A stretch of DNA of 64,000 nucleotides from NCBI RefSeq assembly GCF_007990755.1, contig NZ_BJXA01000050.1, positions 1 to 64,000 on the forward strand. The letters run 5' to 3'. Source of the DNA: Nocardia ninae NBRC 108245. GTDB lineage: Bacteria > Actinomycetota > Actinomycetes > Mycobacteriales > Mycobacteriaceae. The notes under the pieces are model-generated. The model did no database searches, was not told the DNA's origin, and saw only the letters and a list, made by a program, of their open reading frames with translations. Within the stretch, counting starts at the first letter, position 1; the number at the start of each line of letters is the position of its first letter. The translations under genes and the position numbers were made by a program. Below are positions 38,327 through 41,607 of the stretch, in pieces.

Positions 38327-38770
38327 GTGATGGGTCGGTGGCTACTGTCTATAGCCGCTGTCGGCAACGCCGTTCTGCAGTGGGTCGACGACTACAACTC
38401 GACGCACATTTTCAATCCCGCTTTCACCGCACATGCCAAATTCCATGACGGTATTACGATCTCGCTGGCCACTATCCTGGGTGGACTGGCACTGATCTAT
38501 CTCTGGCGCCCCGGCTATGGGCCGGAGCGACTGGCGGTGGGCGCGTTGTTCGCCGGTGTCTGGTGGACCGGTGCGGCCTGTGCGTTCCTGTTTCCGGGTG
38601 CGTCGCACCGTGACGCACAGTTCGCTGCCGATGTCCCGCACCTGTTCGGCATGCCGATCGATCTGCGCACGATCGTGCCCGCGATGATCGCCGTGGTCGC
38701 TCTGGGATATCTGTTGGAACGCCGCCGCCTCCGGACTATCCCCCGGAGCGCTCCGCTGCCACCGCCTTAA
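38327..38770 (+). CDS. Membrane protein of unknown function (147 aa)
   Basis: Four hydrophobic helices are visible at about residues 3-20, 42-62, 68-90 and 112-133. The protein ends in a basic, Pro-rich tail. No family was recognised with confidence. GTG at 38327 and ATG at 38330 are both possible after GGGGTAAGG. It lies between the VOC-MerR operon and the SOS-controlled gene, in the direction of the latter but 146 bp away from its start. Confidence 0.6.
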   Translation: MMGRWLLSIAAVGNAVLQWVDDYNSTHIFNPAFTAHAKFHDGITISLATILGGLALIYLWRPGYGPERLAVGALFAGVWWTGAACAFLFPGASHRDAQFAADVPHLFGMPIDLRTIVPAMIAVVALGYLLERRRLRTIPRSAPLPPP

Positions 38771-38860
38771 GAATCCGAAGCTCTGCAGGTACGTACTCTG
38801 CTGTCTCGGATCGGCCCAGCCACAGCTGACCTGGCCGCGGATCTGCTACACCGTCTCACT

Positions 38861-38876
38861 TCGAACGTATGTTCGA
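38861..38876. promoter_or_regulatory. SOS box (LexA operator), perfect consensus
   Basis: TCGAACGTATGTTCGA matches the mycobacterial/actinobacterial LexA consensus TCGAAC-n4-GTTCGA without mismatch. TACACT at 38877-38882 directly follows and fits a TANNNT -10 element, so bound LexA would block RNA polymerase. The downstream gene is uncharacterised. Confidence 0.88.
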
Positions 38877-38916
38877 TACACTGGAAGGAGGTGGTATCGA
38901 CCGAGAGCGAGGGGTC

Positions 38917-39807
38917 ATGCGGGAGTCGTCCTCGGGATTGTGGAAACTGCTGGTCAGTGAGGTTGCGCTGCGGCACGGGTTCGGGTGCGAGGAGTCGGAC
39001 GGGGAGTTCGTGCTCAGTGGTGCGGCGGGGGTTCGGATCGTGCTGCCGAGTACGCGGCTGGCGCGGCGGGTTGCTCGGGCGCCGCGGCAACGGTGGGCGG
39101 CGCTGGTCGGTGATCGGCTGGAGATGCAGATCGCGGATCTGACCGCGGGGCATCTGGATATGGCGCGGCTGGAGTCGGTGCGGCCGCTGCTGCGGACTCG
39201 GCTCTGCTCGGCGCGCACGAAGGGGTTGATCAATGATGTGCGGCGGTTGGTCGCGCCCGGCCTGCTGCAGCGGGTGCTGGTCGACTTCGGTGAGATCATG
39301 ACGCCGGTGACTTACACGGCTGCATTGCGTTGGGGCGCAAAGGAATCTGATCTGTTCGAGATCGCCGAGCGCAACACCCGCGCGGAGGGCGGGCTCGACC
39401 TGATGGCGGCCGAGATCGACGGTATGGACGACATTGATATCCAAACGCTCTACGGTGCTTCGGATTTCGTCACGGCGCACGTGCGCTGGCTCGACGACTA
39501 TCCGGTCGTCGGACCCTGGGGTGCACTGCTCGTCATCCCGAGGCACACCCACCTGCTCGTGCACCCGATCACCGGCCCCACCGTCTTCGCAGGAATGAGC
39601 CTGCTCGCCCAGCTGCTCGTCGCGGGCGAGGCGGAGTCGAGACCGGTCAGCCGCTCGATCTACTGGTGGCGCAACCGGATCACCGTCGACATCGCCGCGA
39701 CCATTCGCGGCAGCGGCGACCGGATGGAAGTCGTCCCCGCCGATCACCTCGAGTCGCTGCTGGCGATCATGCGCAGGGACGGAAACGACCGATTCCCGCA
39801 CACCTGA
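38917..39807 (+). CDS. Uncharacterised protein under SOS (LexA) control
   Basis: 296 residues from ATG at 38917; the in-frame ATG at 38869 lies inside the SOS box and upstream of the probable transcription start, so it is rejected. A GAGCGAGGGG stretch is the likely ribosome binding site; a stronger AAGGAGGTGG at 38884 has no in-frame start after it. The protein is soluble-looking. The C-half (IPRHTHLLVHPI, then a Trp-Trp pair in IYWWRNRITVDI) faintly recalls the YtpQ/DUF1444 layout, but this is weak. No nuclease, polymerase or prophage motif was recognised. It is convergent with thiC. Confidence 0.75.
   Translation: MRESSSGLWKLLVSEVALRHGFGCEESDGEFVLSGAAGVRIVLPSTRLARRVARAPRQRWAALVGDRLEMQIADLTAGHLDMARLESVRPLLRTRLCSARTKGLINDVRRLVAPGLLQRVLVDFGEIMTPVTYTAALRWGAKESDLFEIAERNTRAEGGLDLMAAEIDGMDDIDIQTLYGASDFVTAHVRWLDDYPVVGPWGALLVIPRHTHLLVHPITGPTVFAGMSLLAQLLVAGEAESRPVSRSIYWWRNRITVDIAATIRGSGDRMEVVPADHLESLLAIMRRDGNDRFPHT

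Positions 39808-39860: not shown

Positions 39861-41607
<1,747 letters not shown>

Follow-up and report, generated by a model that had tools for sequence, protein, structure and literature searches.

A 296-codon gene of Nocardia ninae NBRC 108245 (38917..39807, + strand, TGA stop at 39805-39807) lies directly behind an exact LexA-type operator (SOS box), TCGAACGTATGTTCGA at 38861..38876, in the window, by which we mean the whole stretch of 64,000 nucleotides analyzed here. LexA control of this SOS-box gene is well supported by sequence comparison, and its product appears to be a very distant member of the YtpQ/DUF1444 superfamily, reached through Streptomyces-type relatives and representing an actinobacterial branch. 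Taken as a joint claim, with function left aside, LexA control and superfamily membership are likely correct.

The box had been picked out in an earlier note made from the sequence alone, and it is indeed present on the + strand as an exact palindrome, the sole exact match in the window. The -10 element of form TANNNT that the note placed after it is TACACT at 38877..38882 (+), directly adjoining the operator, with a function that we infer. Looser sites are common, which would favor a palindrome arising by chance: nine sites with at most two mismatches occur in the window (3.1 expected; none of 100 dinucleotide shuffles reached nine), and 91 sites with at most one mismatch occur in the whole 9.7 Mb assembly (16 for a reversed-pattern control). 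Exact sites, however, number seven in the assembly and none for the reversed pattern, and the shuffles of the window contain a mean of 0.01 (one shuffle with a match), which together with retention of the box in orthologues makes chance exceedingly improbable; on the strength of that retention we reject it.

A search of 150 Nocardia genomes yields 11 orthologues at 78-100% identity, the window's own included. The earlier note had offered loss of the box in orthologues as a way for its proposal to fail, and the proposal survives: the exact box with an adjacent TANNNT is kept in 11/11. Across the 55 pairs of these 11 orthologues, the 22 bp of box plus -10 element show a mean identity of 0.94, while the 60 bp upstream of the box show 0.29, near chance in this ungapped comparison, which for that reason understates the close pairs. 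One such close relative, G079, is collinear with the window throughout at 94%; four-fold sites among the orthologues differ on average by 0.33. Because the box is exact in every orthologue while the sequence upstream matches only near chance, the operator is, as judged from these alignments, under selection. Thirteen of 148 Nocardia genomes contain the composite of box and -10 element, always as a single copy, and 11 of these copies stand before the SOS-box gene; the remaining two (G062, G011) precede other genes, and the reversed control pattern is found 0 times in each of the 148. Family members of any kind are present in 41 of the 150 Nocardia genomes (109 have none at E 0.001), and the orthologue itself is missing from 139, so the gene is not generally needed.

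The operator agrees with the motif reported from Streptomyces LexA ChIP-seq, tCGAAC-N4-GNNCGa (PMC9380542). The genome's own lexA and recA carry boxes with a single mismatch, TCGAACAGATGTTTGA and TCGAACATCTGTTCGT, respectively. Palindromes of such size serve many regulators, and some repressor other than LexA might bind TCGAACGTATGTTCGA, but the recurrence of the motif, with one mismatch, at the genome's own lexA and recA makes such a repressor improbable. Two marks of a LexA regulon member, a host-type LexA motif in the promoter and an operator conserved in orthologues, are thus found together at this locus. Like the genes of the mycobacterial and Streptomyces LexA regulons, the window gene has a 16-bp operator of the TCGAAC-N4-GTTCGA type in its promoter; it differs from them in its product, for which repair, mutagenesis and division families show no match, and in its box, which among the copies tested is limited to one Nocardia clade. 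In the titles and abstract openings of the literature searched, a partial coverage, no description of a Nocardia LexA regulon is found, and the abstracts and passages on DUF1444, likewise partially covered, make no connection with LexA.

Other exact boxes in the same genome deserve mention in their own right. Three of them, at L002:1501-1787 (+) and in L005 and L006 (minus strand), each precede an almost identical short ORF whose core is NLE(N/Q)VRDQLLDAAAFGKYLPPEQLEHAAGKI, an unnamed small-protein family that, from this arrangement, looks SOS-controlled. A further exact box, at L001:1501-1516, overlaps the start codon of what we take to be a gene resembling the DUF222-HNH (13E12-like) type known in mycobacteria. 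Besides lexA, a second match to the LexA-type DNA-binding domain (69 bits) is seen at L120 (contig C1 of G000).

An open reading frame extends over 38869-39807, and its codon at 38869 falls inside the operator. The note's re-annotation of the start to 38917, giving a protein of 296 residues, is right: the ATG at 38917 is invariant in 11/11 orthologues, is preceded by the ribosome-binding sequence GAGCGAGGGG (38905..38914, +) or a near copy, and lies at a distance from the box that varies from 51 to 58 nt and not in steps of three, while the frame from 38869 is without conservation. The 16 bases of ribosome-binding sequence plus ATG have a mean pairwise identity of 0.90 (55 pairs). At the other end, a stop used by nine orthologues is absent in the window and in G079, which lengthens the protein by eight codons (39781-39804). 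Among the protein's named relatives, one from N. suismassiliense is closest, at 95%, and no family member besides the SOS-box gene is found in the window genome.

The gene stands alone, as the note had described it. The upstream gene ends at 38770, and the downstream gene (39861..41510, - strand), which we take to be thiC, is convergent, with its 3' end 53 bases beyond the SOS-box gene; it lies downstream in all 11 orthologue loci and serves as a marker of them, outside the unit. Neighbor analysis reveals no conserved operon, and the convergent downstream block is all that the orthologue loci have in common. No -35 hexamer upstream of the operator is conserved among them. In the four loci of the N. 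brasiliensis group (L084-L087), DNA identity is about 95% from the box onward, and homology stops no more than 18 bp from the left edge of the operator (5 pairs compared). There is therefore no conserved -35 element, and the promoter of the SOS-box gene appears to consist of the box and the -10 element. The DNA left of the operator, compared between the window (38800-38861) and these four loci, has been repeatedly replaced in the N. brasiliensis group and forms a variable slot, occupied in L085 by an integrase-core gene.

The SOS-box gene would then be a one-gene, LexA-repressed transcription unit, its LexA binding, induction and promoter use being predicted from the arrangement of these elements. 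In undamaged cells, LexA bound at 38861-38876 would cover the promoter spacer up to the -10 element and block RNA polymerase. RecA on single-stranded DNA would trigger self-cleavage of LexA and lift the repression, with transcription expected to start some 7 nt past TACACT and translation at 38917.

The box does not extend to the rest of the family. Of the 52 non-orthologous Nocardia matches, 41 (20 + 21) were searched for a box over 350 bp, and the best sites, with two mismatches, lie at -317 in L099 and at -291 in L231; two more loci, L036 and L037, were covered over 200 bp only, and 9 short or weak matches were left out. Nor does any of the 29 Streptomycetaceae relatives examined (one start, L152, being wrong) have a box with fewer than three mismatches. 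A tree of 31 rows separates the 11 boxed genes from all other rows by a branch with support 100/99, and box state changes once, versus 9.4 times in shuffles. With two mismatches the fewest at any paralogue tested, the box distinguishes a single clade, and among the copies tested it is, on this evidence, restricted to that Nocardia clade. The proposal of a new member of the actinobacterial DNA-damage regulon is therefore supported as to the regulon, with an SOS-type box that is conserved and shared with lexA and recA, but "actinobacterial" is too wide, because the box is confined to one Nocardia clade and missing from the tested paralogues and Streptomyces-family relatives. In six of the 11 genomes with an orthologue there is another full-length copy, 33-39% identical, and no box with under three mismatches precedes it; these unboxed copies provide a natural comparison for the boxed gene.

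The statement that the product has no recognized repair, toxin or phage motif is borne out, as neither the protein nor its family has a match above cut-off in Pfam, NCBIfam, PHROG or PADLOC. NCBIfam likewise lacks a match for five distant relatives, a PDB sequence search with the protein returns 0 matches, phage records contain no family member, and 0 relatives are confirmed among 41 pattern matches in viral contigs; plasmid records contain one relative, in a chromosome-sized Nonomuraea record that gives it no annotation. With a profile of the Nocardia members, 10 genomes in a phylum-wide sample of 396 have a match, counting that of the window; with a wider family profile, the figure for the Streptomycetaceae is 88 of 297 sampled genomes. 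At 20 Streptomycetaceae loci, one neighbor is common to 6, presumably an M24-peptidase-like protein, and two others are common to 7 each, which offers no functional clue.

The note had also hinted at DUF1444. Profile-profile comparison of the Nocardia rows alone against DUF1444 gives 2.8%, whereas 31 rows with the window sequence first give 72%, which means that intermediate relatives carry the link. Ten rows, mostly distant, give 94.1%; 27 mixed rows give 86.7% against one DUF1444 protein (hhalign score 49.8, the highest score among 200 unrelated decoys being 25.7) and 94.1% against three; and 22 mainly non-Nocardia rows give 95.8% against three, with E 6.9e-9. The three references were assigned to DUF1444 one by Pfam (421 bits), one by annotation and the third by similarity only. 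The alignment is full-length and collinear, the window protein is alike in length to DUF1444/YtpQ/CgoN of Bacillales (PF07285), and R92, D122, N152 and P206 of DUF1444 match its R93, D123, N153 and P208. Very distant homology is thus the part of the hint that holds. Membership of DUF1444 proper does not: Pfam DUF1444 (PF07285) is absent from the matches of 26 family members and finds nothing in 198 actinobacterial genomes; HTAET and NDGYD, which the three DUF1444 proteins share without variation, are mostly lost in the family; and of the DUF1444-invariant columns, those kept by half of the rows number 11 of 97 aligned in the 31-row set and 23 of 98 in the other set. The ytpQ gene is reported to be under Spx/PerR control; the window gene instead has a LexA box and no ytpPQR-like neighbors. 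Matches to DUF5688 (PF18941), weak but collinear in 7 of 26 family members (best E 0.071) and a 35-residue stretch in L017 (E 0.12), are far below cut-off and no evidence on their own. As a separate observation, a 163-kb record labeled Staphylococcus phage (OR844993.1, L136) contains a DUF1444 gene; since that gene is of the chromosomal type, the record may be host sequence.

The combination of a conserved DNA-damage switch and a YtpQ relative suggests that the product probably aids the cell when its DNA is damaged. Mutation of B. subtilis ytpQ is reported to derepress PBSX prophage genes as well as the Fur and PerR regulons, and the mutants to suffer more oxidative protein damage under methylglyoxal (PMC3176815). 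CgoN of Priestia is reported to have coproporphyrinogen oxidase activity in vitro with FAD (PMC10965808), and the contribution of YtpQ to heme in S. aureus has been judged minimal (PMC6620371), so that from these accounts the function of YtpQ is itself disputed. Full-length collinear homology, and the use of FAD by CgoN in vitro (PMC10965808), might suggest that the window protein is a genuine coproporphyrinogen III oxidase of the oxygen-independent CgoN/YtpQ kind, and that DNA damage induces it; the loss of most of HTAET and NDGYD, and the 109 Nocardia genomes lacking any family member, make this quite improbable. Our first choice, put forward tentatively, is instead a damage-limiting protein in redox, iron or tetrapyrrole chemistry, a preference based on Bacillus, where YtpQ is linked with both oxidative damage and iron homeostasis. 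In view of the phenotypes and activity reported for YtpQ/CgoN, it is plausible but unproven that an SOS-induced relative of YtpQ keeps redox or iron damage in check.

A role in immunity is our second choice, although an unlikely one. The relatives would neutralize secreted nuclease toxins, and the SOS-box copy would be an antidote induced by the DNA damage that such toxins cause. In 15 of 72 Streptomycetaceae genomes scanned (a subset of the 88 matched by the family profile), one open frame contains both a family member and Imm49 (PF15575) at adjacent coordinates (G878, G854, G879, G843, G821, G735, G633, G847, G685, G849, G575, G886, G682, G753 and G745); the Imm49 match in L122 reaches 2.9e-43. 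Imm49 is reported to be paired with REase-type toxins (PMC3482391). The Nocardia paralogues are patchy and often multiple, and a gene trio within about 6 kb is common to 2 of 20 paralogue loci (WXG100_2, DUF7674 and YbaB in L105; in L104 by BLAST clustering only). Against the antidote stand the window protein's lack of an Imm49 domain, the lack of a PADLOC match and the unfused state of most Streptomycetaceae relatives read. Moreover, no Pfam toxin family is found in the next-upstream gene of the 10 of 11 boxed copies scanned: these genes match DUF6640, RibD_C, MerR/TipAS, MOSC, integrase core, short-chain dehydrogenase, TfoX_N and DoxX, with two lacking a match, and no partner is constant. 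The eleventh copy (L079) has the same upstream neighbor as the window. Fusion to an immunity domain is therefore seen in relatives, and an adjacent toxin gene is not, as far as the next genes go. That a YtpQ-like protein has been recruited under LexA as immunity against DNA-cutting toxins is a more doubtful proposition still; if true, the toxin-inflicted DNA wound would itself turn on the antidote.

The SOS regulon is already known, and in one Nocardia clade the window gene would add to it a strongly conserved member from beyond the usual repair genes. A family of actinobacterial proteins so far lacking annotation, matched in those 88 of 297 Streptomycetaceae genomes, is also tied to the disputed YtpQ/CgoN superfamily, and the SOS-box gene would offer a damage-inducible handle on what that superfamily does.
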